64,000 bases of DNA from Brachypterus glaber (Eukaryota; Arthropoda; Insecta; Coleoptera; Kateretidae): assembly GCA_958510825.1 (NCBI GenBank), contig OY294048.1, positions 23,586,674 through 23,650,673 of the forward strand. Reading direction: 5' to 3'. Position 1 is the first letter of the stretch. Each line of letters opens with the position of its first letter. Of the stretch, positions 14,980 to 49,875 are shown one piece after another. The notes under the pieces were generated by a model, which saw only the letters and a program-made list of their open reading frames with translations, ran no database searches and was not told the DNA's origin. Made by a program: the position numbers and the translations under genes.

Positions 14980-14980
14980 A

Positions 14981-19024: not shown

Positions 19025-19150
19025 GAACATGCGCATCCCAGGAACAATTTACGTTAACTCCGCTTAATAACACTTTGGGTTTGTACTATCATCACTATTA
19101 AAATTTCTAATGATAAATGGAAACTCCTGGTCTATAAAGACATTTCTCTT

Positions 19151-22849: not shown

Positions 22850-25570
22850 TTTTTAATACATTTTTAAGTTTAAATTCTTTTGATGTTTTGTGTATAAGCG
22901 AGCACTGGCTCACACCCACAGAGGTATCAGCTCTTAAATTGAGTAACTGGAACACTGCTGCTGTATATGCTCGACCCACCTCCATTCATGGAGGAGTTTG
23001 ATCCTGTCTAAAGACTCGTCTTATAATAAATTAAGTTTTGTTGAAAATTTAAGTATTGAAAACCATTGCGAAATTACTGGTATACATTTTACGGAAAAAA
23101 ATGTTGTCATAATTTGCGTATATCGTATACCTGATGAAAATTTTCAGTGTTTTATTGAAGTAATTGAAAAAACTTTAGATAATAATAATAATAATAAAAT
23201 AATATTTATTCGTCCACAAGAAACTAAATACAGTTTATGGAGGGACACCTCTAATTAATAGCTTAAATATTTCACATTAGGTTTGATCATTTGTTTTCTT
23301 CTTGTTTTAAGAAAATTATAATATGCGGTGATTTTAATCCTCCTTTTAATTTTCCAGATGCTAGGACAAACAAATTTCTTGATATGAGAACATATGGCTA
23401 TGAAAAAACCATTACAGACCCAACACGTGGAGCTAATTGCCTGGATAATATTTTTGTAAATTTTCCACTGGAGGAGTGCTTGAGTAGAGTTTTACCCATG
23501 GAATTTTCGGACCACTTTGCTTTAACTATAAATTTTGAAATTCCTAAAATAGGTAAAAATATTTGTAAAAAACTGTTCAGACCTATCACTAAAAGGGGTC
23601 TGAATAGTTTTCATAACATACTAGAACAACTTAATGGGGGGTTTTTGGGGGGTCCAAAGTAAATAATTCTTGCGAAACATTTATTGACAACCTTACTGAT
23701 GCTTTCAAATTATCTTTTCCTGATTAACGTTAGCAGTGGAAGGAAGCGTGAAACGGAGATCAGGTGGTTTACACCCGAGATCGAAAACATGCGGAACACT
23801 TTAAAATTTGTAAATGAGCTATATAACATACATAAAACAAACAATTTAAAATTATTTAGAAATAGATATCGTACCAGGTACAATTATGCTATAAGGAAAG
23901 CAAAGCGTGAAGCTAACGATTTATTTTTAAAAAATGCTAAAAATTTTTCTCAATCCACCTGGAGTCTCACAAATGAAAAACGTAACTTAAGTAAAAATTC
24001 TAAAAACATATCGATAGATCCAAATACCTTCAATAACTTCTTTTCATCTATTCCCCTTGAACTCAAAAAAAATATACCGGTCTGATCAAGATCCGATTGA
24101 TTTAATGAACATTAAACCACCTGAATCCAGTTTCACGCTCACGGAGGTTTTTTTCATTGAGGTCAGGGATATTATTTTGGGTTTTAAAAACAGTAAAGTA
24201 AAAGATATATATGGTCTTTCAGTACGGTTGCTAAAAAAAATGTAGACAGCCTCACTGCACCCATCACTAAGCTTGTCAATGAGTGTTTTAAGCAGGGGGT
24301 TTTTCCGGACTCGTTAAAGATTGCAAAGGTTGTTCCACTTTTTAAGAAAGGAGATAGGGAAGAGGTTTCGAATTATCGACCTATTTCCTTGTTGCCAGTA
24401 GTTTCTAAGGTGGTCGAAAAAGCACTTTATAAACGAATTTTAAGTTTTTTTGAAGAAAACAATTTATTTTCCGACAAGCAATTCGGCTTTCGGAAAAAGA
24501 AAAATACAACCAATGCAATAGCTGAATTTGTTACGCTTGTTACTAAAAAGTTTTGAGGAGGGTCATTTCTCATTATCCTCGCTTCTAGACCTAACAAAAG
24601 CGTTAAACTGCGTTGACCATCCCACTCTACTAAAAAAATTGAAAAAATATAATTTTAGTCATCTTGCTTTAAAATTTATCGAGTCTTATCTGTCAAACCG
24701 AACTCAATTTGTAGAAGTAAACGGAAAAATGTCAGGAGAAAGAGTTATCAATATAGGCGTCCCACAAGGGTCAATATTAGGGCCATTATTCTTCTTAATA
24801 TATATAAATGATTTTATTAATTGCCTTCCTTTTGCGGACTGTATTCATTTTGCTGACGATACGACAATTACAGTTAAGGGTGAAAATCTTTTTCAGGATG
24901 AAGTGGGCTGCTTTGGCGCAGTCGATCGCTTCAAACTGGTTTGCGGCGAATGGCCTGTCACTGAATGAATCAAAGACCGAGAAAATGCTGTTCACGCTAA
25001 GAAATAGAGAAGGTTTTGAGGGAGCCTCTAGTGTAAGATTCTTAGGGATACGGCGTAATTGTTTGGGGGGATTGTTCATCCAGTGATAGGGTATTCGCCA
25101 TGCAAAGAAGAGCTGTAAGAATACTTGGGGGTCTGGGATACAGGGATGAGTGCAGGGAGAAATTTATTGAACTGAAAATTCTAACAATTCCTTCTCTCTT
25201 TATTTATAACTGTCTTCTGCATGCCTATTCTGTCCAGTTTAATAACAATATCTCTAGAGGTGAAGATATACACAGGTATGACTCTCGTTCAAAAGGTGAT
25301 ATTCGTCAGAAATTTCTTAGGCTTTCAAAGTCACAAAATGGTCTGAACTACTATGGCTTCAAGTTTTTTAATAAACTTCCTCCTTCTCATCGCTCTCTTC
25401 CAGTGGCAACTATCATTAAAGGTTTTTTAATATCGAATGCTTTTTTTTCAATAGAAGAATTTTTGAATTTTAATGTTAACTCTACTCTCTCTGGGTAATT
25501 TTAATTTTATTTTATCAGTATGCATTTCTGCTTGGTTTTCAATGCTGGAGTTTTCAATAAAAAGTGTATG

Positions 25571-25600
<30 letters not shown>
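22850..25600 (+). pseudogene. LINE family B copy 1: endonuclease and reverse transcriptase, 5'-truncated and broken
   Basis: A CR1/Jockey-group ORF2 in several frames. Endonuclease: VLCISEHWLTP (about 22890), IICGDFN (23316), LDNIFVNF and FSDHFALT (about 23510). Linker: STWSLTNEKRN. RT: NYRPISLLPVVSKV (about 24370), QFGFRKKKNTTNA (24480), a frameshift near 24540, then LLDLTKALNCVDH (Asp after the Ala-Phe position replaced by Asn), GVPQGSILGPLFF and catalytic HFADDTT (about 24850). Next to RFLG near 25050 about 70 codons present in the copy at 46960-50813 are deleted. The end region AVRILGGLGYRDECR and a C-terminal frame stop at 25498. The 3' UTR ends near a TA-repeat at 25568-25602. Confidence 0.87.
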
Positions 25601-25602
<2 letters not shown>

Positions 25603-25950
25603 TTTTTTTTTTTTTTCTGTCATATACACGCCCAAATCGTATAATTGACGTCAATCAGACACCCAAATTTACGTTGTGACGCCCGACTTTGGGCGTCAGT
25701 CCGTTTAATGCGCGCAATCGACTTCTCTGGATGGTTAGAGTGTAGTACAGGTCCTAACAAAAAATATTTTTTGGCGTCACTTTGATGGGTGTTTATCTAG
25801 CTAGATACAAAAGGGGTTCGTTCAAGTGGCCACCAGGTGGCGCTGTTGCAGCAAATGTATAATACACTTTACATAATACACGTTAAACTGACACCCAGTG
25901 TATCTTCACCGTTGTGACGCCCAAAATGTATAATACACGTCAAAGAGACG
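25568..25950. repeat. TA microsatellite followed by degenerate GACGCCCA-rich array
   Basis: After the TA and T runs, degenerate short units follow: CACGCCCAAAT...ATAATTGACGTCA, GACACCCAAATT, GACGCCCGACTTTGGGCGTC, TATAATACACTT, ACACCCAGTGTAT, GACGCCCAAAATGTATAATA and GAGACGCCCAAAA. A related block in inverse orientation (GTGGGCGTCAC, ACGTCAATTATAG) lies at 42540-42620, again beside a long TA repeat. No ORF. Confidence 0.6.
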
Positions 25951-27173
25951 CCCAAAAACTGGCAACAATGTATTTAAAAAATCATTTTGGCGAGAATAGC
26001 CAAATGTCATATTCAAGGACGTATTTCTATGACTTACGTATCATTAAAATAATTATTAATAGGAATGGTAATGTATACATTATGAAGATATATTTGTGTT
26101 TTATTTTGAAGTATGCATAGCTTAATGTAAATGAGAATATAAGAAAATACATTTGGTAAGTATATTTAAGAACATAACCTAAAATATATTTTTTTTTATA
26201 TTTTATTATATGGGATTACCACCAATAAAATTCTGTTTTCAGCCCTGAAGTAAGATCCATATGGACCAATACTGGTTTTAAAACAATGACCGTTTTTCAT
26301 TATTCAGCAAGTTTCCAAAATAAAAAATTTCTATATTTTAATAAAATGGGGAACCAAAAAGTAAGTAAAATATTAAATATATGAATTCATATCGGAAAGG
26401 ATATATTTATCTTAAAGTATTGCTTAGGTATAGCTATTTGAATAAAATTATAATTTTAGATTTGGTACCATTACGTAATGGGACAATTCTTTAAAAAAGA
26501 GACTTCACCAAGGGATAATTGTCAAATCAAAGTTATCTGCATGCTGACAAAAAATGAATAAGAAAACTGCAAAACATAAACCAAGACTGCTACACCAAAG
26601 AAACATTCCAGATCCAAAAAGTAAGTACATTATCAAATATGAATAAATTTGCTACAAATATTTGCCATCAGGCTTCCAATTTATTTTTTATAATTAAAGA
26701 TTACAGTAATAACATTATCTATTCTCTACTATTTTATAACTCACCTAAGGCATTCTACCATGCATACATAAGGTTTGTTCGAGCTACACTTTTCAGCCAA
26801 CCATATACTGTATTTGTTTTTCATATAACATATATTTATTTGTTTGGCTGAAAACCTATATAATTTTCGATTTTTTTATAAAATTTATCACAAATGCTAC
26901 GAGCTATAAACTTTAAATTTGCTAAAATTTAAAACGCAAATAAAAACCAATTATAGGCTCTTAAAGGTAAACATGATTGTTATCACCATTTTTGAGGTTG
27001 TATGCCAAATTTTAACTGCGTATAAGGGAAATTTGATTGACTCAAAAAGTGACAGCACATCCCAGTAAAAACCTATTAAAAACAATAGAATTCCTAAAGT
27101 TTCCTATTATGTTTTTTTTTTAAGTCAAGTATAATTGAAGTAAATTTAAAATTTTTCCTGGTAGGTTAACATT
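25951..27173. other. Non-coding AT-rich stretch with a degraded MITE
   Basis: Two short direct repeats (CAAAAAGTAAGTA at about 26353 and AAAAAGTAAGTACATTAT at about 26617) are seen. At 26771-26866 there is a decayed copy of the TA-flanked MITE family described at 39453 (AGGTTTGTTCG...TTGGCTGAAAACCTA). No gene was recognised. Confidence 0.55.
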
Positions 27174-27178
27174 TAAGT

Positions 27179-28768
27179 CACGGTGCCCAGGAACAAAGAT
27201 TTAGTTTGACTTTCGAATAACCCAATTTTTGTTTTATAGCATTGTTACATGCTGCCTTGGGTATCGTTTTTTATTTACGAAAAAACCCCGAATATAGAGT
27301 AGGGTGCTTCTTAAAATTCGAAAATTTGGCATTTTAACCGGCCACCCGGGTGGCACCCCTTATTTTATTTTTCCCTATAAAAAAATGCTTCAGACCAAAT
27401 TTTGCAAAATCTAAAAATTCCTAGAGGTCGCTACCAGCAAAAAAGTATTTTTTTTGTAAAATGCATATATTTTTTTAAAGAATATTGGAAATACATTTTA
27501 TGAATGGATAAATTTGTATTCAAATTAATCTAGGTTAGTTGCTTAACAAAAGTTATTGTCACAGGTGGCACGGGGGTTCACGTGGCCCTAGGCATCGAAA
27601 TATCAATTTAAAAACAAAATTTTTCCAGTTTTCACTATAAATCTTACGTTGGTCTCCTTCAAATATTTTTTTTTGTTGCTTCCCACCTATATCTAGCCGA
27701 AATTAAATTAAACAAAATAATAAAAGCAAATCAAAATATTGTTGATGCAGTATTGCAGTACGTATAATTTGTGGTCCAAATGTTAACCCTCCAATACCCG
27801 CACGCATCTGACATATGCAGGAGTTACAATTTTTAAGGTTTAGATCTAACGTTGACAAATAATATTCAAACATTTTTTTTTTAATTTTTTTTTTGAATTT
27901 TTTTTTTATTTATTTGGGGAATACAATATACTATTTACTGTGAATAATATATAATGGAATGCGTAGCATTACATATCTTCACGGCTTGTTTTATACATAA
28001 TATTTAAAAAAAAAACATTTTTTTGCTTAATGCATCTGAGAGGCTCAGTGCGAGTACTAACGTAAGTTTTTTGGTGAGGGTATTGGAGGGTTAAGTTAAT
28101 ATTTTAAGGTGCTCAAAAGTTATAAGGATCAGGGTAAATTTTAACACATTTTGGACCAATTTTCGCGCTGTAAAGATCAAAAATTGTTGTTAATATAAAA
28201 ATTTAATAGTATTTCAGCTAGATATAGTTGGGGAGCAATAAAAAAATATTTGAAGGATACCAAAATATAATTTATAAGTAAAATCTTGCAAGGAAAGTGA
28301 TAAATTTTTAAATTTTTTTTTGAAAACTGTTTTTTCGATATCTAGGGAGTGGGTTATGTGACCCCCCATGAGTCATGGGCCATGACCATGACTTTTATTA
28401 AACAACTAACCTGGATTATTTTAAACTCAAACTTATAAATTTATAATATGAATTTACAATAATTAATGTTTTTTTTTTGCTGGTAGCGACCTCAATGAAT
28501 TGTTCGATTTAGGCAAAACCTGGTCTGATCATTTGTTTATAGGAGAAAATAAGATGAGGCCGGCCCGTTAAAATTTCAAGTTTTCGCATTTTAAGAAGCA
28601 CTCTACTCTATTATTAAGTTTTTTTTTTTCGTAAATAAAAAACGATCGGCCCGATGGATTTTTTTTTAAATTTGGTAAAAGTGATACCCAAGCACCATGC
28701 AACAATGCTATAAAACAAAAATTGGGTTATTCGAAAGTCAAACTAAATCTTCATTCCCGGGCACCGTG
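27179..28768. mobile_element. Fold-back element with CACGGTG ends and 5-bp target duplication (Transib-like, non-autonomous)
   Basis: The left end CACGGTGCCCAGGAAC (27179) and right end CCCGGGCACCGTG (28768) are inverted repeats flanked by the direct repeat TAAGT (27174-27178 and 28769-28773). The two halves are imperfect reverse complements over their whole length, about 750 bp each, meeting near 27960. Matching pairs include GACTTTCGAATAACCCAATT / its complement at 28716-28740, TAGCGACCTC-type blocks at 27425 and 28485, and AACCCTCCAATACCCGCAC (27784) / 28070-28095. A 5-bp duplication and CACNRTG termini match the Transib superfamily, whose ends resemble V(D)J recombination-signal heptamers. 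No transposase is present. Confidence 0.75.
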
Positions 28769-28807
28769 TAAGTATACTTATAATTTATTGCAGGAAATAA
28801 AAATTAC

Positions 28808-28893
28808 AATTCCTTCATGCGGGTTCGAACCACACATTGCTGGCGTTGCGACATAAGTACATCAGTGCCTTAGACGTCTCAGCCATGTAAGAA
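28808..28893 (-). repeat. tRNA-like sequence (SINE head or tRNA pseudogene)
   Basis: On the minus strand an A box-like ATGGCTGAGACGTCTAAGGC and a B box GTGGTTCGAACCC are spaced as in a tRNA gene, and the ends can pair imperfectly as an acceptor stem. A normal anticodon stem is not formed, so it is not a functional tRNA. It resembles tRNA-Leu/Ser types most in the D arm. Confidence 0.6.
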
Positions 28894-29168
28894 TTAAAAA
28901 GTCTTTTGTTAAACGAAAACGTATTATGTATAAATATTTAAAGTTTTTTCTATAACTGAATCATATGTTATACAATTTTAATAATACATTTATACATTAT
29001 GAAGATTTAAAGAATTATTTAATTTTTCTAGTTTAAAATTAATAGGCTTGTATTTTTCGTATAAGAAGTTTTGTATTTTTTTATTATTTTAATTTGGGTA
29101 AAATAAATAAGATTAAAAAATGTTATATTTTATTATTTATTTTTTAAAAAATTAGGACCTGTCAAAAA

Positions 29169-29726
29169 TGACGTCACCTAATTTTAGACAAAAAAGACCC
29201 CCATAGTTTGGAGTGATCCCTCAGGTAGGGTGGGTCAAAACTGACCAAAAAACATTTCTTTTGAGAAATTTAAGTTGTTTCATATAAATTAATTATATGA
29301 AAACTTATTTTAGCTAGGCAAAACCAAGCTGTAAAATATAATAAAAAACTTAAAATTAACTAAAATATTTTTAGTTAAAAATGAGCCATTCCCTTAATAA
29401 TTATTTTTTTCAGTTTTTTACCATTATTTTAAAAATTGTTAGTTATCAAAAAAAAAATAAGACAAATTCGAAATCTGGATTAAAATATATTTTATTTTTT
29501 ATCTCAAAAATATTACGTAATGGCGAAAATTGGAGATCAAATTCCTAATCACCGTACACTAGAGTGCCTTTGTGACGTTTTCTGTCAAGAATAAATGCTG
29601 TCCTTGACACTATAAATGACATGTCAGACCCCATGAGAAGATGTCTTTTTGTCGACTAGTTCTATAGTGATATAACTAGTTGCACCCAAACTCAAAAAAA
29701 AATTAGAAACACCCTAGGTGACGTCA
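29169..29726. repeat. Candidate element bounded by a 12-bp inverted repeat, abutting the recombinase-gene stop codon
   Basis: TGACGTCACCTA at 29169-29180 recurs as TAGGTGACGTCA at 29715-29726. The right end lies only 3 bases from the stop codon of the gene on the minus strand (29730-29732), so this would form its 3' UTR. No flanking duplication is clear; the assignment as a transposon is tentative. Confidence 0.4.
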
Positions 29727-29729
29727 GTT

Positions 29730-29926
29730 TTAAACTGCACCATTCTTACAGGTATTAAATATAAAAGTTTTAATTTTTAACCATTTTATTCCACGAAACT
29801 CATCTTTATGGATGTCTAAAAAATGTTCACACTCCATTTTTTTCAGTGCCTTCTTACTTTTAATATTTTCTTTAAAATATGAAAGCATAATTTTTTTTTG
29901 ATTTTCTTCCCACTTTTGTCTAGGAG
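29730..29926 (-). CDS. Exon 11 (last) of the tyrosine-recombinase gene
   Basis: The acceptor is GTTTTTTTAG at 29928-29927. It encodes a lysine-rich module PRQKWEENQKKIMLSYF, then KKMECEHFLDIH and GIKWLKIKTFIFNTCKNGAV, and the stop. Short W...C...W..IK modules of this kind end many related proteins. The exon is separated from exon 10 by an 1132-bp intron that contains the 537-bp dispersed repeat at 30308-30844. Confidence 0.78.
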
Positions 29927-32900
29927 CTAAAAAAACAATAGTTAAAAAAAGTGAGAATATGTCAATAAAAAATAAACAGGTTCCATTTTTTTACATAATA
30001 GTTATTTATATACCAAGGGACTAAACTGGCCGTTTTAGTCCCGCTGCATGACTGAAACAGGAATGCAAGGGACTAAAACAGCCACGTTTAGTCCTGAGGT
30101 ATATACACAATTTTTTGCACGACCAAACATAATTTTTACTTAATTAAAATTAAAAACCATGCGACTAAAGTCAGGTGTTTTATTTTCGTTTGGACTTTTA
30201 TCAAGATACCTGTGAATTGCGAAGTCAGTTTCAATGCTATCGCGATTTCAATTGTTTTTTAATATAGTTGACACAAATGTCAGTTCGAAAAAATGGACGA
30301 AGACGATGGGTAATTCCAGCAAATCGTGACATGGCTGGCTTGAAATAAAATACAGATTATTATTAGCATTTATAGCCATAATGGTAGCTTATAAAATGAA
30401 TTTTCTGGAAGTATCAATTTCATAGTCATCAAGGTGGCTGTTTCTTAAATAAGGATAGTTTTATTTAGCGGTACGTGGTACTTGGACAATTCACTTCGTA
30501 TTTAGCGTCATTTAACAGCGCAAAAACTGTGGTTTAAACTGTTTTTTTGTAACTAACTATTTTTCTATTATAGATTATTTTGTATACTGTCGTTTACTAT
30601 AAATTATAGGCTGTAAGTAAACGATTTATTATTTTTTTCCTTAAAATATTAAAAATCATCAACAAATTGTAACGTAAGCAACAAAAAAGTATATTTTTTG
30701 TTTTTTGACTTTATTTTTTACTTAATACTCTTCTATTTTTAGATTATCTTAATTTAGTATAATTTTTACCTAATTATGTAATTATTTTGTTTTCTTTAAT
30801 TTTTTATTGTATAAAAAAAAGTACTAACTTTGTAACGTAAGCAAGGTTGCCGTGATTTTTTTCCCTTGGGAGAAAAAAGGCAAGTTTAGTCCCACAAATG
30901 AAAGCGTAAAATTAAGTTTTAGTCTTGGTTGTGCAAAAAATTTTTTATGGCACAGCACATGTGCTGTGCTAAAATCCATTACTGCCCAAATGAAAAAAAG
31001 TGAAAAAGTTAGGACTAATGCGGGTAGTAGAAAATCACTAAAAATTTTTACAATATACCTGATTGTTTCTGAACACTGGAATTTTCCTCTTCGAAATGAA
31101 AGTGATCACTTTCACTGGGGTCGTCATTATTATTTTCATTATATCTTCTGTCATCATGTATGTCTTCTTCATTATGCTCCTCAATTGTATCCATGTCAAT
31201 ATCAATTTCTTCAAGTGATTTGTTTTTAAAGCTTGAAGCATTTCCTGATTCCATCAATTGCAAAATTTTCGATACTTTGGCAACTTGGTAGACATCTTGA
31301 GGAAGCCTAAAAATGTAATATATTTTTAATTGTAACAAAAGGTATAATTATTATCTCGTAATATTTAAGATGTTTTTGGCCTTTCACAAAAAAAAACTTT
31401 TTAATACAATACTTAAATCTAAACACTTATGGCCCAAACTTTTAACGATTATAAACGCGAAATATTTTTTAACGCGAGGTAACTTTGTCGCAAACCTTTT
31501 CCGCTTAATTAACTTACTTGTAGAACTGTTCATGGGTTTTTGACGTGTGCCCCATAAACTTCGAAAACTGTTCAATTTCATTACTTTTTAAACTCAGGAC
31601 TTGTGTTACAGTTACTATGTGTTTTCTTAGCCTATTTGATGTTAATAACTCCGGATGTTTAGCGCCACAGTCTCTGGCATATTTTCGTAGGGCCACACAT
31701 CCATCAACCCATTGACTTGAAAATGGGTAAGAAAAAAAATAAGTATTATTTTCATCATACCATGAATTCTTTGTGGTTCTTACATTATGAATCATACTAT
31801 AGTATTTCTGCAAATTTTTGGGAATTAGTATACTAACAGCTCTGCTTCCTTTGCCTATAGATGAAATTCTTTTATAATTCTTTGTTAACATCTTTTCATT
31901 TTCTGTTAAAGACTCAAGAAATTCGTTTTGAATTATGTTTGAACTATTTGTTTCATATGATTTTATATCTAGATATTGAATATCCCCTACCCTTTTTCTG
32001 TTATGCAGTATTGTAGAACAGAGTGTAGTTTCTAATAAAATCCGGAATGCATTTAGTTCTTTTGAAATACAGAGTTTTTGATATGCCTCCTCTGCTACTT
32101 TTTCGACATGATTTTTCATTTTGATTACGTCTTCAGTTATAGGTAACAGTTTAGGTTTAAAGCTGATTTTTCATTTAAATCTTTTAAGGCTAAGCTACTA
32201 ATTTCTACCCTCCATTCTGAATCGATAAGATTTTTGAAACGAACTAAGTGTTTTAACTTCGCTTCTATATCCAAAGTGGCTATTTTCTTTCGTTCTATTA
32301 ATTTTATAGCTAATGAGGTTATTTGTTTCAATGTAGTTCCAAAATGAAGTGCTAAAGACCCAGCTCCAAAAGATTTAGTTTCATTGTCATATTTCGACAT
32401 GTTTTTGACAGCTTCTATAACGTTGTCAAAATTCTCCGGTGATAATACAGATAGGATATCTGAATAGTTACCTAATTTTTTTATTTCCAAAAGAAACCGG
32501 CTGCATTCCCTTATTCGGTTTGAAATATGGTATACTTTTCTCTTGTTTTTTGAACATTTTAATAAATCTTCTGCATAGTAGATAATTATTAAATCGTTTA
32601 TGGCTGTTTCTGTAATATTATCAGGCTGCATTTTCTTGAATATTTTTTGTTTTGCTTCTAATTTATTTAATAACTCGCCATAGGTTTTTTGGCCAGCTCT
32701 ATATATTATTGACTCGCACAGTGGTCGACTTTCATCTTTTCTGTTTGCCTTATTAGCAAAACAACGATTAATATGCCGGCAAAGGTACATTTTTTTAAAA
32801 AATCCTTTGCAATGTAAACATATTGCATAATCTGTTTCTTCTACATTTTTTGCAGTCATCTTTTTAGGGATAATCTGTCCATTTAATGCATTGTCCATAT

Positions 32901-35900
32901 TACCTTCATTTCTTAATAGGGCAATACATTCCTTTCTTTCTTTACTTTTCACCTTATATGATAACAGTTCCTTAACTAGTCGCTCATTTGAATGATTTCT
33001 TTGCAAGTGTCTCACAAAATGACTATTGTTAATTTGATTTTCACAAAACTTGCATACACAGAATTTACTATTTTTGTAATCTACCTTTCTTGCACTATCT
33101 TCTTTATTAGTTGAACATTGATCCTAAAAAAATAAAAATGTAAAAAATAAAAAAAGGTTTTGTTTAAGAGCTCTCTGGGGGGGGGGATAAAATAAATACA
33201 CTTTTATTAATAAAATAATAAAATTATATTAATCGTTTTTTGCTGTTTTTGACATTTACCGTTTATTGGAAAAATAAAAACATAAAAAAGGCTTTGTTTA
33301 AGAGTTTTCCGGGGGTCAATATAATAAATAATTATTAAAATAATAAAATTATTTTAATCGTTTTTGCTGTTTTTGACATTTACCGTTAATTAGAAAAGGT
33401 TGCGATAAAGACAAAAAAATTGGGATTGTTTTTGGTAATAATTGAGCGGTAAAAGGGCCAAAAATTAAAAAAAATTGGGGGATGATCATAATATGTGTAC
33501 TACATACCTTATTAATTAAGTGATTTTCCTCAGGTAATTTATAAAAATCATTTAATTTTTTTAGCATATCGTCATTAAAAAAGTATTCTTTATTAGTTGA
33601 ACATTGATCCTAAAAAAATAAAAATGTAAAAAATAAAAAAAGGTTTTGTTTAAGAGCTCTCTGGGGGGGGGGGATAAAATAAATACACTTTTATTAATAA
33701 AATAATAAAATTATATTAATCGTTTTTTGCTGTTTTTGACATTTACCGTTTATTGGAAAAATAAAAACATAAAAAAGGCTTTGTTTAAGAGTTTTCCGGG
33801 GGTCAATATAATAAATAATTATTAAAATAATAAAATTATTTTAATCGTTTTTGCTGTTTTTGACATTTACCGTTAATTAGAAAAGGTTGCGATAAAGACA
33901 AAAAAATTGGGATTGTTTTTGGTAATAATTGAGCGGTAAAAGGGCCAAAAATTAAAAAAAATTGGGGGATGATCATAATATGTGTACTACATACCTTATT
34001 AATTAAGTGATTTTCCTCAGGTAATTTATAAAAATCATTTAATTTTTTTAGCATATCGTCATTAAAAAAGTATTCTTCCTAAAAATTACAGTATTATTTT
34101 CGAAATGACTGTTCTGAGGATATTAATCTTAATTTATCGCAGACAGTAAGTTAATTTATTTAGCTCATAATTACAAATACTAGTTATTTTTAATAAATAT
34201 ACAAATAAACTATAAAAAGCAATTTGCATTCCAGAATTAAAAACTACTAAAGTCAAGGTTATGTGGTTTTCTATTCATCGAAAAAAAGTGACAAAATTAG
34301 TATTTGATGGATACTGATATAGTAGGATTAATTTGGATGCGTTATTTTGCGAGCTATATTTTTTTACTTACATCATTAGAACTTTTTAACTCAAATAGAT
34401 AAATACCCCAGTCAGCACAGGGCTGTCCTTAGGATATCCTTATAGGATATATGGGATATCCTTAGGATATCCCAGGCTAGCCTAAGGGTATCCTGGGGCT
34501 AGCCGGTGGTGCAAAAAAAAACATTTTCAACCCTATTTTAAACCGAAAAAAAATTGTGTAAGAAAATTAAAAAATATATAGTTAAATGGAGAATTTTATA
34601 AGCTTTAAAATGATGTATCACACGACCCCCCTTTCTATTTAAAAAAATGTCCCCCATGCCCCCCTGCCCACATTTTAAGAGCTAAGTAAATCAAATATAT
34701 GCCAAAAGATAGTTTAAGTTATCTTATTTAAGAGTTCTAAATTTGAAGTCGATATCTTAACTCGTTCAAAAGTTAAGAGGGGAGGGGATTACTTTTGTAC
34801 CGCTCTGTATGTATATACCCACCTTTAAATTATTGTTAAATTCGTGATTGAGATTACAATCATATTTAGAATAAATAACCTCCTCCTCTTTGTAATTTAC
34901 GAAATCTTTATTATTTTTACTAATTGGGCTTGGTAAATCATTCTAAAAAATAAAAAACTGTAAGGAACACTGTAAAAGTATGACCTATTTGCATTTATCA
35001 ATAACAGCCACACAAAAAAAAATAATTTCAGTATCCAGATACTAGACCAACGCATTTTTATATTATCGGGGTCGCTGAAACTGAATCTGACCTCAGAATT
35101 GCTCCATCAGATCACAATTTTTTTCTACACTTAAAAACATCTGAATATAAGGAAATTTCGCACTTTTTTAAGTGTAGAAAAAAAATGTGACATGATGGAG
35201 TAATTCTAAGGTCAGATTCGGTTTCTGCGACCCCGAAAATATAAAAATGTGTTAGTCTAGCCCCGGGCACATGATTTTTTTTTATTTTTTTTGGTTGGTT
35301 GTGCAGTGCACAGTGTGCACAGCACCCAAAAAATAATTTCATGTGCCATAGCAACCAACGCATTTTATTATTTTCGGGGTCGTTGAAACCGAATCTGACC
35401 TCAGAATTGCTCCAACAGGTCACAATTTTTTTCTACACTTAAAAACATCTAAATTTAAGGAATTTTCGGAACATTTTTTTAAGTATAAAAAAATGTGATC
35501 TGATGGAGCAATTCTGAGGTCAGATTCGGTGTCAGCGACCCCGAAAATATAAAAGTGCGTTGGTCTAGCCCCTGGCAAATGATTTTTTTTTGATTTTTTT
35601 TTTGGTTGAAAAAAATATATATTTTATTTATTAAGCAAATTGTTTTGAAATTTATAACAATGTGGTTATTAATGCCTATAACTTGATTATTTTTTGCTAA
35701 TCTGAAATCCTTACATATTTTAATCCATTTTTTTTATTTATTTTTTTATTGAACTCGGTTCTTTTTTAATTTGAAATTTATTAACCAGATCTAGATTTAC
35801 AGGATTTTTGCGGGAAATCTAATACACCCAGAAAAATATTTTCCTAGCCCTAGTATAATTTAGGGTTAATTTAAAGAAAAAATAAAAATATATTACCTGT

Positions 35901-38900
35901 TCTACATCAGGTACTCGTTGCTGTTCTATGTTTTCTTCACAACCGTAGTTGTTTACTGTTAAAAATAATGAATACCTTGGCGATGAACTCTAAAATAAAA
36001 AAACTTACTAAATATAATTTATTAAATACCTGTAATTGTCCTTTTGCAATTTTAATTAATCAAAAAAATTGTTTATTCCATAAGAAAAACATTTTGCTTG
36101 GACTGTTTTCACACAATATTTGACAAAAACCCTTGATTTTTATCTTGGGTTTCTGTTGTATTAATATTGCATTTAAACAGTTTTTAATCAATTTTTTTTC
36201 ATGCAATTTTTTGATAACTCAACCCTTAAAATGATATTTTATTTTTTTCACTACTAGCTTTAGAACATACCATTATTTATCATGTTTTCAGACTGTGAAA
36301 TCAATTTTCTTCACCTATAGCAATAATAATTTTTTCTCTCCTACTAGGCGTAAATTTTATAAACAATTGATTTCTGTCACTTTTGGTGTTTCAGTTCTAT
36401 GTGCAATTTTGACAAATTAAACCCAAGAAAATAGCTTTAAATAATTTTTAATAAATATAAGTAATTATAATTATTACCAATCAATACAATAAATAATTAG
36501 CTAAATATTATAAAAAAAAAAATAAAAAAAAAACTAAATTTTTTAACGTCAGTTCAGAGTATTTATTTGAGCAAATGTCAGTAATCAAGGCTACATGATT
36601 TTTATTAAAATTTCAAGAAATATAATTTCTGTTTATAATTAACGTTATTATTTGAATAAAAATAGTTAAATAGTGCTAGTAGTGAAAAAACTAATATATA
36701 AACCACGGTAGAGAAGACTATTATAGCCCGCACTCTTAAATCCCCCGCTGCTGCGCAGATCGGAATTTAATACGCTCGGATATAAAAAATGTCTTCTCTA
36801 CCTTGGTATATAATTACTATTAATCCCTTATACTTACTACTATGTCCTCCCAGATTTCCTCTCTAGAAATAAAAGATTCATTCTAAAACAAAGGCATTTA
36901 TTTAGTTTATGATATTTTACCAATATTTATTGGTTACCCAAAAGGCTATTGACCGGGGTTTTTCTGCCTATAAATACAATATATAAATTTTTATAAATAG
37001 TTTATGATAAATATTTACTTAATTTATTTATTTAGAAAAACACTAGAAACCAATATCGAAAAAAATCACGATTATTTTAATTTACATAAAATAAAAAAAG
37101 TTGGTGTTTTTTATTTTTTTTTTTAATGAAAACACTGATGTAAATCATTTTCGATAAATTATTATGATTACACTAGGCAACACGGTTTCTTGCCCCGATT
37201 GGAGTCATGTTTTTTTACTAATTTTGGGTCGCTGAAACCGAATCTGGCCTCAGAATATTTCTATTACCTATGTTTTCTGAGAAAAATAAGATAAAAATGT
37301 TAAAAAATCATTATTTTATCCCTCTTTTGTTCTAAAATCATGGGAGACAAAAATATTCCAAGGACAAATTTGGATTCGGCAACTCAATATTAGTTAAAAA
37401 ATACCCAACTTAAAACATAGAAACTTTAAATTCATAGGTAGAATAAATAAGAATATTATGAAAAAAAAAATATATTTAAAAAAAAATGGATAATGTGACA
37501 AAACTAAGTAGGGGTGGAGGGTAAGAAGAAGGGTGCATAAGGGAACAAGCTTATTGCCACGTACTCATGCTAAAAATTGTCAAAAATCATTACTAGGGGG
37601 TCAAAAATGAACTAAAAAAATGATACGTATTATGGTTCTTATGTAATAAAGTAACATTTTTATGATGTAGAACCATTAAAAAAACAAACAAAAAATACAT
37701 AATATTTTGTTTTATAAATTATTTTTAAATTGGCATAATTGCATGTACTAAAATTTAAAAAATAAGACATTCTAAATTTTTTTTAAGGTCAAATTTGGAT
37801 TCTGCGCCTTTAAATTGATAAAAAAAATATATTTTTTGGGCTCGGGAAAAAAGTTTACACTGTGTACTTTAATTTTATATCTTTTTTATTTATTTACTTT
37901 TTAGGAACAAACTAAGCAAAATAAAAAAATATTTGTATAAATATTTTTGTAGAGAATTTTATAATCTACAAATTAAGTTCTATAAAATTAAAAAAAAAAA
38001 TGATAGTTTTGCCACAAATGAGCAATTAAGTTAACTCTGCACTTTCATTTTAACCTTTTTATTTTTTTTCGCGTACTTACTGACAGTAGATTCTTGACAT
38101 ATAGATTTCTGAATACCTCGTATTTTTTTTAATATACACTAAAATTTTCAAAATTCTACTCTTTTTTTTTAAAGATTTTGAAAAAAACGTCATTATTACC
38201 TGAACTTATATCTCAAAAATTTTAGGTGCTGGAATTTTTCTAAGGTCAGATTCGGATTCTACGTCCTCGAATTAGTAAGAAAAATTTCCTTTCCGATCGG
38301 GGCAAAAAAAAAGTTGCGATTTGTTGCCTAGTGTTATTAGCATAATAAAATATTCATTTGTGGTGTAATTTTTATATTTTAGATTTTCTCGGAAACAGTT
38401 GGTCTTTGGGTAATTTAACAAGATTACCTATTTGTATGTTTTAATTACATTTTTATAAATATTAATTGAAAAAAGCAACTCTTGTTTGCATGCCGCTTTA
38501 CTAGATATCTAAAAAAATATATCTAATTGCTCATATTATTATTATGGCCCCCCTTGGGATTCATTTGACAAAAAACTTTACAGTCTGTTTATTTTATTAT
38601 TTTTAGTAAAGAGACAACTATGAAATTTCGGTTAAAAAAATTGAAAAATTAATTAATCCCAAATTATCATTGCTTTATAATAATAAATAATATTTATTTC
38701 CCTAGGACAAATGTCAGATAACAGATTTGTTGCATTTTTATTATTGGGATTAACATTCATATATACTTACTAAGATTTCCTCTACAGAATCATTCTAAAA
38801 CAAAAGGAAGTTTTATTATTATGATAAAAACTTAACACTTTTTAGTTTTACCAGTTGCGAAGTTGAGGACAGAGCCCACAATGAATGTTGATCTTCATCA

Positions 38901-39947
38901 TAATCATCGAGATATTGGCTAATAGATTCTACAAAAAAATAAATAGGTAGATAAATAATATAAATAATTAAAGGATTGTATTTTTTTTTTAATTCATATA
39001 TTTTAGTAGTTGTTTTTGAATAATTTCCATTCAAACAATAGGTTTTAAATCCAATCTTTTGGGAAAATTACAAAAACTATTTACATAGGATTTATTATAT
39101 ATTCTTTCAAGTAAAGTTTGTTTCCCAGAATTATGTGCAAAAATGTATCAAAGTTTTTGATATTTTGATCCATATTGGTTTAAATATTAAAATAGTAGGT
39201 CTTGTCCCCAGGGGTGCTTCGAAGCGATTTTATTGGGTGGAGGGTGGAGCAAAATTTACCCAACTTTTGATTAAGAAATTTCCCACCTTATAAACCCCAA
39301 AAAATTTTAATGACTAAAAAAACGGACCTCTACAAAATTCCCAACTTTACCACGCCAACCGGCCACTTTTCCCAACTTTTTTTACCCTGAGAAAAAAAAA
39401 CTTTACCCCTGTCAGAAAATTTGTAGAAATTTCCCAACTGTACCTTTTAATAGGTTTGTTCGTTGGTGCTGCAAATACAGTATTTATTTGGTTGGCTGGA
39501 AAGTGCTCAGTGTAGTTCATTGCAGCACCAACGAACAAACCTAATTTTCCCAACTATAGTGCCAATTTCCAAACTTTGCACTACATTCTACCAACTGGAG
39601 ACACTGAATTTTCCCAACTCGAGCGTGGTTGGGGGGTGGCATCCCCCTATCCCCCATGGGAGCACCCCTGTTTGTACAGAAAACAAGTAGAATCGCGAAA
39701 TTCTAGCATACCTACTGTTATGGATACTTTTTCTGTGACTATATTGGAATAAAAACAGTTTATACCTACTACGACATTCTGGTAATATGCAGATACTTGT
39801 TTTTAATTGAGAGACCAACATCTACTTCCGGCCTTTTGGTAGAGACAATATTACTTAATAATAAATACTTTTTTTATAAACAAATAAATATTATTAATAC
39901 TTACTTTGTTGCGCTAATGCTAAAATTCTTTTAGTTCTTGAACCCAT
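29730..39947 (-). CDS. Eleven-exon gene: zinc-finger plus tyrosine-recombinase (phage-integrase fold) protein, ~879 aa
   Basis: Exons on the minus strand (5' to 3'): 39947-39905, 38928-38852, 38794-38771, 36882-36838, 35989-35897, 34942-34823, 34078-33995, 33609-33508, 33123-31518, 31306-31059, 29926-29730. Every junction has GT and AG and the phases match. One base is missing in an A run near 32167-32172 within exon 9. The product starts MGSRTKRILALAQQ, has an acidic, low-complexity N-terminus, two Cys/His fingers (CKFCENQINNSHFVRHLQR; CLHCKGFFKKMYLCRHINRC) and a C-terminal tyrosine-recombinase domain with RKRVGD, SNRLRKH and FMGHTSKTHEQFY, supplying Arg, Arg, His and Tyr. This layout resembles Crypton/YR-like proteins found in many invertebrates. 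DNA strand exchange is inferred, not shown. It may be a transposon-derived host gene or a recent pseudogene. Confidence 0.8.
30308..30844 (+). repeat. Dispersed 537-bp repeat, copy 2 (in an intron of the recombinase gene)
   Basis: Same length and orientation as 7326-7862. It seems to interrupt an imperfect fold-back sequence: TTTTTTGCACGACCAAAC at about 30114 faces GTCTTGGTTGTGCAAAAAA at about 30922, and GGGACTAAA words flank it at 30018-30100 and 30872. No duplication of the target can be defined at its ends. Confidence 0.8.
31059..31306 (-). CDS. Exon 10 of the tyrosine-recombinase gene
   Basis: The acceptor is ATTTTTAG before GCTTCC; the donor is GTATAT at 31058. It completes the Lys codon left open by exon 9 and continues LPQDVYQVAKVSKILQLMES, the helix that follows the catalytic tyrosine in this family. 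A very acidic linker (IDIDMDTIEEHNEEDIHDD) follows. It ends with one base that joins exon 11 to make an Ala codon. Confidence 0.82.
31518..33123 (-). CDS. Exon 9 of the tyrosine-recombinase gene (fingers and catalytic domain)
   Basis: The acceptor is TTTTTTTAG before GATCAATG; the donor is GTAAGT at 31517. The first frame runs to 32137 and encodes both zinc fingers and the helical core-binding region (FGAGSLALHFGTTLKQI, LKHLVRFKNLIDSEW). One missing A near 32167-32172 shifts the frame. The second frame (32119-31518) carries the catalytic half: LHNRKRVGDIQYLDI (box I Arg), ALRKYARDCGAKHPELL, RLRKHIVTVTQ (box II) and the GH...Y motif whose tyrosine falls two residues before the splice donor. 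A 1606-nt exon is one base short of the length the flanking phases require, so a sequencing indel is as likely as a mutation. Confidence 0.82.
33104..34077. repeat. Tandem duplication, two ~487-bp units
   Basis: The segment 33104-33590 recurs almost perfectly at 33591-34077; the embedded 72-codon minus frame is identical in both (33349-33567 and 33836-34054). The break lies inside coding sequence, near the start of exon 9 and in exon 7. Confidence 0.92.
33508..33609 (-). CDS. Exon 8 of the tyrosine-recombinase gene (duplicated exon)
   Basis: 34 codons with acceptor TTTTTTTAG and donor GTATGT. It starts like exon 9 (DQCSTNKE) and continues like exon 7 (YFFNDDMLKKLNDFYKLPEE), so it is a hybrid made by tandem duplication of a 487-bp segment. 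It is phase 0 at both ends, so its inclusion keeps the frame. Confidence 0.75.
33995..34078 (-). CDS. Exon 7 of the tyrosine-recombinase gene
   Basis: 28 codons (EEYFFNDDMLKKLNDFYKLP and on to HLINK), acceptor ATTTTTAG, donor GTATGT, phase 0. It is the parent copy of the duplicated exon 8. Confidence 0.75.
34405..34512. repeat. MITE-like GGATATCC-rich palindromic sequence
   Basis: It starts CCCAGTCAGCACAG and contains stacked self-complementary words (AGGATATCCT, GGGATATCC, GGCTAGCC). The terminus matches, in inverse orientation, the end CTGTGCTGTCTGGG of the element at 53829-54119. It lies in the intron between exons 6 and 7. Confidence 0.55.
34823..34942 (-). CDS. Exon 6 of the tyrosine-recombinase gene
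   Basis: 40 codons, phase 0 at both ends, acceptor TTTTTTAG and donor GTGGGT. It encodes NDLPSPISKNNKDF and then an acidic VNYKEEEVIYSKYDCN stretch, part of the low-complexity N-terminal half with no recognisable domain. Confidence 0.7.
35046..35575. repeat. Two adjacent fold-back units (~220 bp each, ~307 bp apart)
   Basis: Each unit has arms built on CTGAATCTGACCTCAGAATT and its complement around a TTTTTCTACACTTAAAAACA turn, bounded by ACCAACGCA and TGTGTTAGT or TGCGTTGGT. Unit 1 is at 35046-35264 and unit 2 at 35346-35575. Related single modules occur at 37225-37260, 37785-37810, 38245-38265 and 46205-46235. No ORF. Confidence 0.75.
35897..35989 (-). CDS. Exon 5 of the tyrosine-recombinase gene
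   Basis: 31 codons, phase 0, acceptor ATTTTAG and donor GTAATA. It encodes SSSPRYSLFLTVNNYGCEEN and then IEQQRVPDVEQ; no domain is recognised. Confidence 0.7.
36838..36882 (-). CDS. Exon 4 of the tyrosine-recombinase gene (micro-exon)
   Basis: 15 codons (NESFISREEIWEDIV), acceptor GTTTTAG and donor GTAAGT, phase 0. It resembles exon 3 (NDSVEEIL) and its flanks, so the two may be ancient duplicates. Confidence 0.65.
37171..38333. mobile_element. CACTA-like non-autonomous DNA element in an intron
   Basis: The left end CACTAGGCAACACGG and right end TTGTTGCCTAGTG are inverted repeats, extended inward by TTGCCCCGATTGGA / TCCGATCGGGGCAA. A 3-bp direct repeat TTA flanks them (37168-37170 and 38334-38336). 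CACTA termini with 3-bp duplications fit the CACTA/EnSpm group. The interior is non-coding and carries ATTTGGATTC modules related to the fold-back units at 35046. It lies between exons 3 and 4. Confidence 0.72.
38771..38794 (-). CDS. Exon 3 of the tyrosine-recombinase gene (24-nt micro-exon)
   Basis: Eight codons (NDSVEEIL) between GTTTTAG and GTAAGTAT, phase 0. It is very short but has strong splice sites and keeps the frame. Confidence 0.6.
38852..38928 (-). CDS. Exon 2 of the tyrosine-recombinase gene
   Basis: 77 nt with acceptor TTTTTTGTAG and donor GTAAAA. The first two bases complete a Lys codon with exon 1. It encodes SISQYLDDYDEDQHSLWALS and STSQL, an acidic segment with a Trp. Confidence 0.72.
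39209..39670. mobile_element. hAT-like MITE in the first intron
   Basis: CAGGGGTGCTTC at the left and GGGAGCACCCCTG at the right are inverted repeats of the hAT type. The 8 bases outside (CTTGTCCC and TTTGTACA) agree at 5 of 8 positions, an eroded 8-bp duplication. The interior is full of repeated TTCCCAACTT words and holds a nested MITE. Confidence 0.62.
39453..39541. mobile_element. 89-bp TA-flanked MITE (Tc1/mariner type), nested
   Basis: Inverted repeats GGTTTGTTCGTTGGTGCTGC / GCAGCACCAACGAACAAACC are flanked on both sides by TA (39451-39452 and 39542-39543). Related copies are at 55224-55371 and, decayed, at 26771-26866. All share an ATACAGTATTTATTTG-like core. Confidence 0.82.
39905..39947 (-). 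CDS. Exon 1 of the tyrosine-recombinase gene (start codon)
   Basis: ATG at 39947 opens MGSRTKRILALAQQ plus one base before GTAAGT. An S-R-x-K-R-I-L start is common to related arthropod proteins, which supports this ATG. The promoter should lie in the AT-rich 39948-40361 stretch; no clear TATA-initiator pair could be singled out. Confidence 0.72.
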
Positions 39948-40361
39948 TATAAATAATAGAATTAAACAAATTCAAATAACATTTATGTTACAAGCAATTA
40001 GTTTATGCTTACAACGAATCACTACCACGTGTTTATAAATTAAAACCATTTATTCTTTATCCTATGATTTAAACGTTGCTGTTCTGTGATTTAAACCGAC
40101 TGTTATTATAACGGCTTTTTAACTTAAAGCTTTGCGCAAATCACATGATTTTTTCCAAGGTCGCATTAGGACAGAGATGTACTAAAAAATATTCAAATTG
40201 TTAAAATTATTTGTTAGTTTTGTCTTTCACTTTTTTATGCTGTATAAGAGTACTTTTTCGAAAATAATTAAATTATAAGTATAAAATTTTACTAAGGTAA
40301 TACGTTATATTTTAAACGATGGCTATTTTATTTTCTCATTAAAATTTTTGTTACAAATGAT
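39948..40361. other. Upstream region of the recombinase gene
   Basis: An AT-rich non-coding stretch between the first exon and the TIR element at 40362. It should contain the promoter of the minus-strand gene. No transposon was recognised. Confidence 0.5.
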
Positions 40362-42363
40362 TTATAAAGTTTTGAAATTTTGGTTGTGAACTCCCAGTAG
40401 GAACCCAAATACAGATCCGAAGAGTTCCCTCCTCCCCGGGGGGAACTTCATTCCCTTTTCAGAAAAAAACACCCCCAAACGTGACATCATGAGTCCAGCG
40501 CCGTTTTGTATTTTGGAGTTTTTAAGGTTGTTGAAAGTGACTGTTAGTGCTTTTACAATCTGTTATTTAACTTGCAATGTTTGTTTATTTATTTATTTAT
40601 TTATTTATTTGTTTAGCGCAAATCTGCCAAAGGCTTTTTCGACCACTTATAAACTACCAAGAAGGGTAAAATTTGCTAAGCGTATTTAACTCAGCTAACA
40701 TTACAATTTTCAACCCCCCCACTCCTAAAATTTTAAAAATCCATTTTTTACCCCTACAACATAATTTAAAACTAAAATTAGGTTGCATACTCACCTAGTG
40801 ATAATAAAATTTTAAAATAAATTTTACATTCCCACTCGTCTCCCCAACACCCCCCATACACGTATAAGTCTAAGTTAACACCCCCCTATCTTTCACCCAC
40901 TTAGAATATACTTAGAAAGCTGAAATTTGGTAAACATGCTTAACTTGGCTGACAATACTTTTTATATAAAATTTAAAATGGATTTTTTAAATTTTAGGGG
41001 TGGGGGGACATAAATTTTATATAAAAAAGTATTGTCAGCCGAGTTAAGCATGTGTACCAAATTTTAGCTTTCTAAGTATATTATAAGTGGGTGAAAGAGA
41101 GAGGGGGGTTAACTTAGCCTTATACGCGTATGGGGGGTAATGAGGAGACGAGGGGGGATGTAACATTTATTGTAAAATTTTATTATCATTAAATGAGTAT
41201 GTAACCTAATTTTAGTTTTAAATAATCTAGTGTGGGCAAAAAATGGATTTTTTTAATTTTAGGGGCAGGTGTTGGGGGTAAGTATTATATAAAATGATAT
41301 TGTCAGCCGAGTTAAGCATGTGCACCAAATTTTAGCTTTTTAAGTATATTCTAAGTGGGTAAAAAAGAAAGGGGTGTTAACTTAGCCTTATACGCGTATG
41401 GGGGGTGATGGGGAGACGAGGGGGAAAGTAAAATTTATTGTAAAATTTTATTATCATTAAATGAGTATAACCTAATTTTAGTTTTAAATAATCTTGTGTG
41501 GGTAAAAATATTTTTTTTTTAATTTTAGGGTCGGGGGTTGGGGGTAGGTATTATATAAAATTGTACTGTCAGCCAAGTTAAGCATGTGTACCAAATTTTA
41601 GCTTTCTAAGTATATTCTAAGTGGGTGAAAGAGAGAGGGGTGTTAACTTAGACTTATACGCGTACGGGGGGTGATGGGGAGACGAGGGGGAATGTAAAAT
41701 TTATTGTAAAATTTTATTATCACTAGGTGAGTATGCAACCTAATTTTAGTTTTAAATTACCTTGTGGGGGTAAAAAATGGATTTTTGAAATTTTAGGGGT
41801 GGGGGGTTGGGGGGTAAGTTTTATACAAAATTGTAATATTAGCCGAGTTAAGCACGTTTAGCAAATTTTACCCTTCTAGGTAGTTTCTAAGTGGTCCAAA
41901 AAGCCTTTGGCAGATTTGCAATAAACAAATAAATAAATAAATAAATAAAAAAATAAATAAACAAACATTGCAAGTTAAATAACAGGTTGTAAAAGCACTA
42001 ACAGTTACTTTAAGCAACCTCTAAAACTCCAATATACAAAACGGCGCTGGACTCATTCTTATCTTCGAGCTGAGCTTGATGCTTATTTTCCAACGTCATA
42101 TGTGAGCGTTGGGTGGAAGATACACAAAGACCTAATAGGATAATTTTATGTAGAATTTAATGGAGAATATAATTAGTTTTTTAACATTTTCTCGTCGGAG
42201 TAACGGTTTACGAGATAAACGCAGAAAAGCACCAGGAAGTCACGTTTGGGGGTGGTTTTTTCATCAAAGGGGGATGAAGCTCCCCCCGGGAAGGTGGGAA
42301 CTCTTCGGATCTGTATTTGGGTTCCTACTGGGAGTTCACAACCAAAATTTCAAAACTTTATAA
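40362..42363. mobile_element. TIR element with (AAAT)n in both arms and an amplified ~265-bp internal unit
   Basis: Arms 40368-40690 and 41880-42357 are reverse complements starting AAGTTTTGAAATTTTGGTTG and containing GGATCTGTATTTGGGTTCCT, an AAAT/TTTA repeat and GCCAAAGGCTTTTT. The outermost TTATAA (40362-40367 / 42358-42363) could be a target duplication or part of the repeat. Inside, a unit with GTCAGCCGAGTTAAGCATGT and TTATACGCGTATGGGG is repeated near 40994, 41265, 41524 and 41795, plus one inverted copy at 40700-40990. Another array of the same unit lies at 46320-46957. No ORF. Confidence 0.78.
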
Positions 42364-42539
42364 TAGAACGTGGTATTTTCGTCTAAATTGCTTCGACTAA
42401 TAGGTATCCACTAAAAATGTCCTACCTCAATATCACGATCTCAAATTAAAATTTAATACAATTTAGCTAAGTTGATCTGGCAACACTGTTCTCTCATACA
42501 TACACTTGGGTGTGTAATTAGCATAAGTTATCGTGGTGT

Positions 42540-42618
42540 GACAATAGCACATTTTATCATATTCAGATGGGAGTGACAAGTACGTCAATTATAGTGGGCG
42601 TCACTTTGACATTAAACA

Positions 42619-42681
<63 letters not shown>
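42540..42681. repeat. GACGCCCA-type block and long TA microsatellite
   Basis: GTACGTCAATTATAGTGGGC and GTCACTTTGACATT precede about 60 bp of TA repeat (42622-42681). The same association of TA repeat with GACGCCCA words is seen at 25568-25950 in inverse orientation. Confidence 0.75.
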
Positions 42682-46319: not shown

Positions 46320-46957
46320 GATGATTAAAAAAAAGGTCTCAAATCTAAAAAGATGTGGGTGAAAAAAGGGATTTTTTTTTTAATTTTAAGGTTGGGGAGA
46401 TTGGGGGTAAATTTTATACAAAATTGTACTGTACATCACAGATAAGCATGTGTACCGAATTTTAGCTCTCTACGTGGTGAAACAGAGAGGGGGGTAAACT
46501 TTGCCTTATACGCGTATGGGGGTGATGGGGAGATAAGGGGGATGTAAAATTTATTGTAAAATTTTGTTTTACTGGATGAGTATGTAACATAATTTTAGTT
46601 TTAGTTTTATATAAAATTTTATTGTCAACCAAGTTAGGCATGTGTACCAAATCTTACCTTTCTAAGTATATTAAATTATCTCATGTGTGAAAAAAAATGG
46701 ATTTTTTTAATTTTAGGGGTGGCGGGTTGGGGGGTAAGTTTTATATAAAATTATATTGTTAGCCGAGATAAGCATGTGTACCAAATTTAAGCTGTCTAAG
46801 TATAGTCTAAGTGGATGAAACAGAGGGGGGTTAACTTAACCTTATACGCGTATGGGGGGTTGGGGGGTAAGTTTTATATAAAATTGTATTGTCAGCCGAG
46901 TTAAGCATGTGTACCAAATTAAGTAAATTCTAAGTGTCCGAAAAAGCCTTTGGCAAA
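46320..46957 (+). repeat. Second array of the ~265-bp unit of the 40362 element
   Basis: Three imperfect units share AAGCATGTGTACC, CTTATACGCGTATGGGG and GTGTGAAAAAAAATGGATTT-type blocks with 40994-41880. The array ends at AAAAAGCCTTTGGCA, just where the LINE B 3' end joins, so it is a truncated copy. Confidence 0.75.
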
Positions 46958-47299
46958 GTCTATACACAAGTCACAAAATATTTACATACATATATATGAT
47001 CATACACATATATGCATGTACTTATACAAAATAATAGTCCAAGGGACATAAAAAAATTTAAATATTACTGTACCAAAACTAAAAGTATATAACAAAGTAT
47101 ATGACAAAAATAATTTAAAGAAAAGGGATCGATGGACCCCATGAATTGTAGGTACAATTTAAAAACTCGTTTGTTGAAAAAAAAAACATTTTTGAGCAAA
47201 AACTGTTTTATCGCATTTTTAAAACTGATCATTGGAAGACTACGAACGCAGATTGGCAGTTTATTAAAAAAAAATTAAGGCATTGTAATTTAGACCATT

Positions 47300-49816: not shown

Positions 49817-49875
49817 TGTAAATTTTTACTTGTTTTTGTTATTTAATACGTCACCTGGGTCCTGATTTGATTTTG

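Follow-up and report, generated by a model that had tools for sequence, protein, structure and literature searches.

The 64,000-nucleotide stretch analysed here (hereafter the window; Brachypterus glaber assembly GCA_958510825.1, contig OY294048.1, positions 23,586,674-23,650,673, forward strand) carries a gene for a zinc-finger tyrosine recombinase (YR) that lies inside a 17.0-kb mobile element. The gene runs on the minus strand from 39947 to 29730 and, as had been claimed in a preliminary description made from the sequence alone, divides into eleven exons whose phases match between neighbours, the ten introns all being GT-AG. Exon 1, with the start codon, lies at 39905-39947 and is followed by exons placed by the same layout at 38852-38928 (exon 2), 38771-38794 (exon 3), 36838-36882 (exon 4), 35897-35989 (exon 5) and 34823-34942 (exon 6). 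Exons 7 (33995-34078) and 8 (33508-33609) are duplicates of one another, as they are copies inside a 487-bp tandem duplication (33100-34077, two copies with 99% matches). Exon 9 (31518-33123), which is also evident from the open reading frames (ORFs), encodes the zinc fingers, a core-binding region and the catalytic domain; exon 10 (31059-31306) begins in the codon following the catalytic tyrosine, and exon 11 (29730-29926) encodes a C-terminal helical domain and the stop codon. Alignment with related proteins supported exons 9, 10 (KLPQD.YQ.AK.SK) and 11, and the N-terminal motif encoded by exon 1 resembles, by eye, that of the relative P0001 (MSERTRRILALA... in P0001), such that exons 1, 9, 10 and 11 correspond to conserved proteins in order and in phase. 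For exons 2 to 6 no relative was detected in seven loci of the B. glaber genome, and in the same loci exon 1 gave no match by tblastn or motif scan.

Two Cys/His fingers had been proposed and both are present, at 32992-33060 and, with the arrangement C-x2-C ... H-x4-C, at 32761-32820 (minus strand). Their metal ligands are well kept: in an alignment of 73 relatives those of the first finger were conserved in 47/50, 50/52, 57/58 and 57/58 of the ungapped sequences, and those of the second in 68/68, 66/67, 67/68 and 66/68. Beyond the fingers, the predicted structure has the catalytic fold of a tyrosine recombinase with the Xer recombinases as its closest match; for the full-length relative P0001, Foldseek ranked Tn1549 Int first (E 3.3e-3). 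Conservation and the predicted fold together place the catalytic residues between 31520 and 31993 on the minus strand, at 31993 (Arg), 31852 (Lys), 31627 (Arg), 31549 (His) and 31522 (Tyr), and the alignment of relatives retains the expected series of Arg, Lys, Arg, His/Trp and Tyr. Of the positions named in the preliminary description, the Arg of RKRVGD, the Arg of LRK, the His of GH and the Tyr are present and conserved, but the His of RLRKH does not correspond to the box-II His normally seen; the Lys, in GKGSR, is an additional residue of catalytic type that had not been listed. The first position of the box-II motif H-x-x-R, placed by eye against the XerD and Cre motifs, is N in the window protein, and in 65 relatives it is T (26), C (13), N (11), S (10), L (2), V (2) or R (1), the other 8 of 73 having a gap. 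The C-terminal region encoded by exon 11 is shared with relatives and is helical in the model of P0001. Sequence searches of Pfam, PHROGs and PDB with pieces of the window protein gave no convincing family, a profile-based search against PDB sequences picked up the fingers only, and DUF3504 was not among the Pfam families listed for the relatives (the best 25 of 60 in one scan, all in another). The proposal that the gene is rich in introns and encodes a zinc-finger tyrosine recombinase, probably acting on DNA in a site-specific manner, is supported.

The length of about 879 residues given for this protein is correct as a read-through length (879 aa), but exon 9 is not a single open frame, a one-base break having been overlooked. 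The two halves of the exon are ORFs in different frames (33123-32137 and 32170-31514, minus strand) that overlap at 32137-32170, the ORF list and the translation of the joined exons placing the one-base shift near 32160-32180; the joined exons amount to 2639 nt, a length not divisible by three, and translation meets stops after the break. The relatives P0001 and P0002 have an uninterrupted frame across this point. Either the window copy is an ageing member of its family whose frame is broken, or one base of the assembly is wrong at this position.

The limits of the element around the gene became apparent from a second copy that lacks the gene, on another large contig (C4), in which the same two junctions are again set in (TA)n. 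This copy is 95.5% identical to the window over 25567-26541 and 93.4% identical over 41613-42657, with tandem-repeat matches beside the first of these alignments, no match for the recombinase gene region and outer flanks that cannot be aligned. Because the ends are shared with the gene-less copy and the flanks beyond them do not align, the window element was taken to end at about 25604 and 42620 (17.0 kb, minus strand, with 42620 on the 5' side of the gene). Repeat finding showed a (TA)n repeat at 25567-25603 next to its 3' end, perfect from 25585, and a (TA)30 repeat at 42621-42681 next to its 5' end. The 3' end is also found beside the closest paralogue of the gene, on contig C19 (76% over 79 bp, with (TA)7 adjoining). 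The terminal arms (3', 25617-25676; 5', 42556-42620) form an imperfect inverted repeat. Their end-to-end alignment scored 47, a value reached by 1 of 5000 shuffles; among 17,956 placements on the real sequence 4 reached it, and two of the 4 fell at the right end or next to it. With one mismatch allowed, TGACGCCCA occurs nine times in the 64 kb: six copies fall at 25677-25954, no more than about 350 bp from the left end, an inverted copy lies at 42595-42603, 17 bp from the right end, and two others are elsewhere in the window.

The recombinase gene is the only recognised gene of the 17.0-kb element. Nine further ORFs of at least 80 aa inside it, one of them around exon 2, gave no Pfam match at E <= 0.1, and among ORFs of this size no reverse transcriptase, RNase H or DDE enzyme was recognised; the reverse transcriptase-like ORFs of the window, identified by eye, fall outside 25604-42620. 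A 266-bp tandem repeat in the element has relatives outside it and in the C4 gene-less copy; in the window this repeat was noted at 40975-41894, which is within the element, and at 46354-46980, which is beyond its 5' end.

Three of the matches to the recombinase elsewhere in the genome (C2, C4 and C10) lie in copies of a discrete 6.1-kb element on three large contigs, with 99.4% identity between the C4 and C10 copies over 6164 bp; those of C2 and C4 agree at 98.5% over 5306 bp and, in a further 901 bp, at 99.1%. The ends of a fourth copy (C10:5.635-5.641 Mb) were predicted and then found in two 1.6-kb stretches (851 bp at 97.8% identity, 645 bp at 99.1%), giving at least four copies that are 97.8-99.4% alike, all of them in AT repeats. 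The 6.1-kb element has a single long ORF, a recombinase of 938 aa whose frame is open in the three recently multiplied copies (900-938 aa); all of its other ORFs are of 141 aa or less, outside the Pfam scan. The C4 copy adjoins the gene-less copy of the window element, both ends of which abut (TA)n. Perfect (TA)n arrays that reach 16 bp numbered 14 in the window and the fetched loci (192,202 bases), and 11 of these were at element ends. The six insertions have 12 ends, and such an array is present at 11 of them, directly abutting the element in ten cases and separated from it by 6 bp in the other. At the twelfth end, that of the copy at C10:100 kb, there is an interrupted AT repeat. Together, the outer flanks of this copy make up a single palindromic repeat whose core is AT, and so the AT core probably preceded the insertion. 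The copies on C16, C18, C601 and C602, and those on C216 and C524, gave no ends because 15-20 kb around them are identical or nearly identical between contigs. For C16:12.61 Mb, C18:14.86 Mb, C601 and C602 the identity is 100%, and these stretches are either very recent large duplicates or an artefact of assembly; that on C16 also carries, by eye, a Penelope-like reverse transcriptase ORF.

The family is both abundant and widespread. With the catalytic ORF, 45 matches at E <= 0.001 were obtained in the 648-Mb B. glaber genome, fragments counted, the closest being 60-71% identical in the catalytic part, and its relatives come from beetles and a wasp, from fish and from metagenomes. A tree was built from 33 rows chosen by hand, 28 of them from the 256 proteins returned by the searches; in it the window protein pairs with that of C19 (100/99) and the B. 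glaber copies occupy three separate deep branches. The intron positions also recur. The GH...Tyr motif is seen in 55 of the 73 relatives, and 23 of these terminate exactly one residue past the Tyr, as expected if a genomic ORF had been read into a donor like that of the window (..TAC AA|GTAA..); 22 of the 23 are known only from metagenome sources. In the C19 paralogue exons 9, 10 and 11 are split at the positions seen in the window gene, and the C4 subfamily of the B. glaber genome is without the intron after the Tyr. The introns thus look like a family trait and not the mark of adoption by the host.

Substitutions within the family were examined in two comparisons. Between the window gene and C19, the counts of differences at the first, second and third positions of 299 codons (90, 58 and 151) were used in place of a ratio of nonsynonymous to synonymous rates, as synonymous sites were saturated; there was long past constraint on the protein. 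The C19 relative is likewise frame-broken. The C4 and C10 copies of the 938-codon frame differ by 6 nt, with one codon change synonymous and five not, as expected for a recent insertion without constraint. Pairs of proteins from distant beetle families (P0004/P0024 and P0002/P0019) are 80-84% identical: firefly and mealworm proteins share 80% over 563 positions, and Brassicogethes and Phaedon proteins 84% over 488. Within a single species, copies of the family can be much less alike, and the similarity across beetle families hints at transfer between species. Many of the fish relatives (P0066 and many among P0204-P0256) have the recombinase fused to a SET domain, and 20 of the listed fusion entries, isoforms included, are from Misgurnus anguillicaudatus.

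From the structure of the gene, the recombinase fold and its conserved catalytic residues, the defined ends, the gene-less derivative, the multiplied relatives and the AT junctions, we conclude, with a probability of roughly 85%, that this gene is the recombinase gene of a Crypton-like YR DNA transposon, spliced and bearing zinc fingers, which like its relatives inserts into AT microsatellites. On this model the fingers and the core-binding region would bind the inverted end motifs, and the recombinase would cut through its Tyr, join both ends of the element and exchange strands with the alternating TA of a target microsatellite. Tyrosine recombinases need short homology between their partners, which the microsatellite repeat could supply. 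Copies without the gene would be mobilised in trans. The intermediate would probably be an excised circle, as has been proposed for Cryptons (PMC3212892).

Several observations weigh against this conclusion. On the protein side, the box-II His is absent throughout the family (0 of the 65 ungapped relatives, of 73), and the Pfam integrase model matches only 5 of 45 relatives (best E 2e-5, 24.9 bits against a cut-off of 27.1) and does not match the window protein. No spliced reads were seen for the gene model, and no circle was seen. The inverted ends are imperfect, as a stricter local alignment gave a score that was reached by 3 of 1000 shuffles and that, out of 622 control alignments between overlapping stretches within the window, at least 11 exceeded, and a search for terminal inverted repeats in the 6.1-kb element gave none that was convincing. 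The scan for other enzymes took ORFs of at least 80 aa, which a gene of small exons could escape. As to the target, the loci used for the array count were not random, having been included because they held copies; a target duplication is unreadable within (TA)n; and stretches of 20 kb around the C16, C216 and C19 copies, whose ends are undefined apart from the one C19 end with (TA)7, contained no perfect (TA)n array as long as 16 bp.

It also has to be considered that the (TA)n arrays might have grown after insertion from the AT-rich tips of the elements, and so might not be targets at all. That the arrays vary in length between copies and that no empty site was seen speak for this idea. Against it, the C10:100-kb copy lies between the halves of the AT-cored palindrome, which would make that core the older of the two, and some of the outer flanks are interrupted, each in its own way; we therefore regard growth of the arrays from the tips as unlikely. 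More improbable still is that the recombinase gene is a passenger and that some other enzyme, such as a Ginger2-type DDE transposase, moves the element. Enzymes of this type are reported to target AT microsatellites (PMC10871703), and the imperfect inverted ends would suit such a transposase, but none of the nine further ORFs of the 17-kb element has a Pfam match, the only long ORF of the 6.1-kb element is the recombinase itself, and it is this frame that has stayed open in the recently multiplied copies.

Domestication by the host, which the preliminary description had favoured, is also not borne out and we consider it very improbable. The introns and conventional first exon, the lack in the genome of any relative closer than 60-71% and the past constraint seen against C19 could all be read in this way. 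However, the gene is inside an element that shares both ends with a gene-less copy, its frame is broken as is that of its C19 relative, and it belongs to a multicopy family that was recently mobile, with 45 genomic matches and related elements 98-99% identical on three large contigs; moreover, the introns recur across the family and past constraint is equally expected of a transposon. Finally, that the exons are chance splice-like sites around an intronless recombinase ORF would fit the failure to detect relatives of exons 1 to 6 in the seven loci, but it is hardly credible given the agreement of exons 1 (by eye), 9, 10 and 11 with conserved proteins in order and phase, the recurrence of the donor after the Tyr (23 of 55 relatives) and the splitting of exons 9, 10 and 11 at the same places in C19.

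Other ORFs of the window were assessed by eye. ORFs like those of non-LTR (long terminal repeat) retrotransposons flank it on both sides (22947-25498 and 47300-50799); gypsy-type LTR-like ORFs and an envelope-like ORF lie at 14756-20877 on the plus strand, with a run of N near the start; and several broken ORFs at 2070-4822, also on the plus strand, resemble the protein-primed DNA polymerase B of Polinton or virus type.

A spliced recombinase transposon of this kind that is widespread seems to have been little described so far. Titles and abstracts of the literature yielded no multi-exon zinc-finger YR transposons of beetles and no YR elements in AT microsatellites, a weak negative in both cases as Repbase and most subscription papers were outside the scope of the search. 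A candidate identity can now be suggested for hundreds of 'uncharacterized' beetle and fish proteins, and introns together with conserved fingers should not be taken as proof of domestication. Two sets of ends, an alternating-TA target and a relative with an open frame of 938 aa are now available, and therefore target choice by an animal tyrosine recombinase can be tested in vitro. More tentatively, the family may constitute an old superfamily of its own among the YR DNA transposons of eukaryotes, marked by splicing, two zinc fingers and a C-terminal domain. In insects it would home to AT microsatellites; it would be distributed among invertebrates and fish, in the latter with SET-domain fusions, would pass between species, and was perhaps the source of the repeat-targeting recombinases of crustacean large DNA viruses; we put this forward as a possibility that is less probable than its opposite.

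In its catalytic fold the window protein resembles the Tn1549/Tn916-type integrases and the Xer and Cre recombinases, and the spacing from GH to Tyr is XerD-like. These are bacterial enzymes that are not known to have zinc fingers or introns and, unlike them, the window family lacks the box-II His. The DIRS, Ngaro and PAT retrotransposons also encode a tyrosine recombinase (PMC4157794), but the reverse transcriptase and RNase H of such elements were not found inside the window element, nor were any split direct repeats noticed there, no special search having been made for them. The animal Cryptons (CryptonA and CryptonI) are described as having a recombinase and no reverse transcriptase, as giving rise to gene-less derivatives and as occurring in insects and fish (PMC3212892). 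The window element and its family resemble them in this, with a recombinase present and no reverse transcriptase or DDE enzyme recognised. The same account gives animal Cryptons neither a C-terminal domain nor terminal repeats, and describes their boundaries as hard to locate for want of inverted or long direct repeats. The window element differs in having a C-terminal helical domain shared with relatives, a gene of many exons, insertion into AT microsatellites and imperfect inverted ends, these last being found by the lenient alignment and not by the stricter one. By its contents it is Crypton-like, but it does not fit the description of animal Cryptons in these traits, and Repbase may already name some of its relatives as Crypton.

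For the targeting of repeats, the nearest published parallel that we have seen, judged by description, is provided by the tyrosine recombinases that endogenous nimaviruses of crustaceans encode, although no nimaviral protein was named among the matches listed and no comparison aimed at these recombinases was made. As reported (PMC10871703), they combine a C2H2 finger with a recombinase domain, are encoded by multi-exon genes in two of the viruses, and insert into telomeric TAACC repeats or 28S ribosomal DNA, insertion of nimaviruses into (AT/TA)n being attributed there to the Ginger2-type transposase. There the recombinase serves a large DNA virus, whereas here it belongs to an element of 6-17 kb with one recognised gene that is found in TA repeats, but the two systems as described share a zinc finger joined to a recombinase, a multi-exon gene and insertion into simple repeats.

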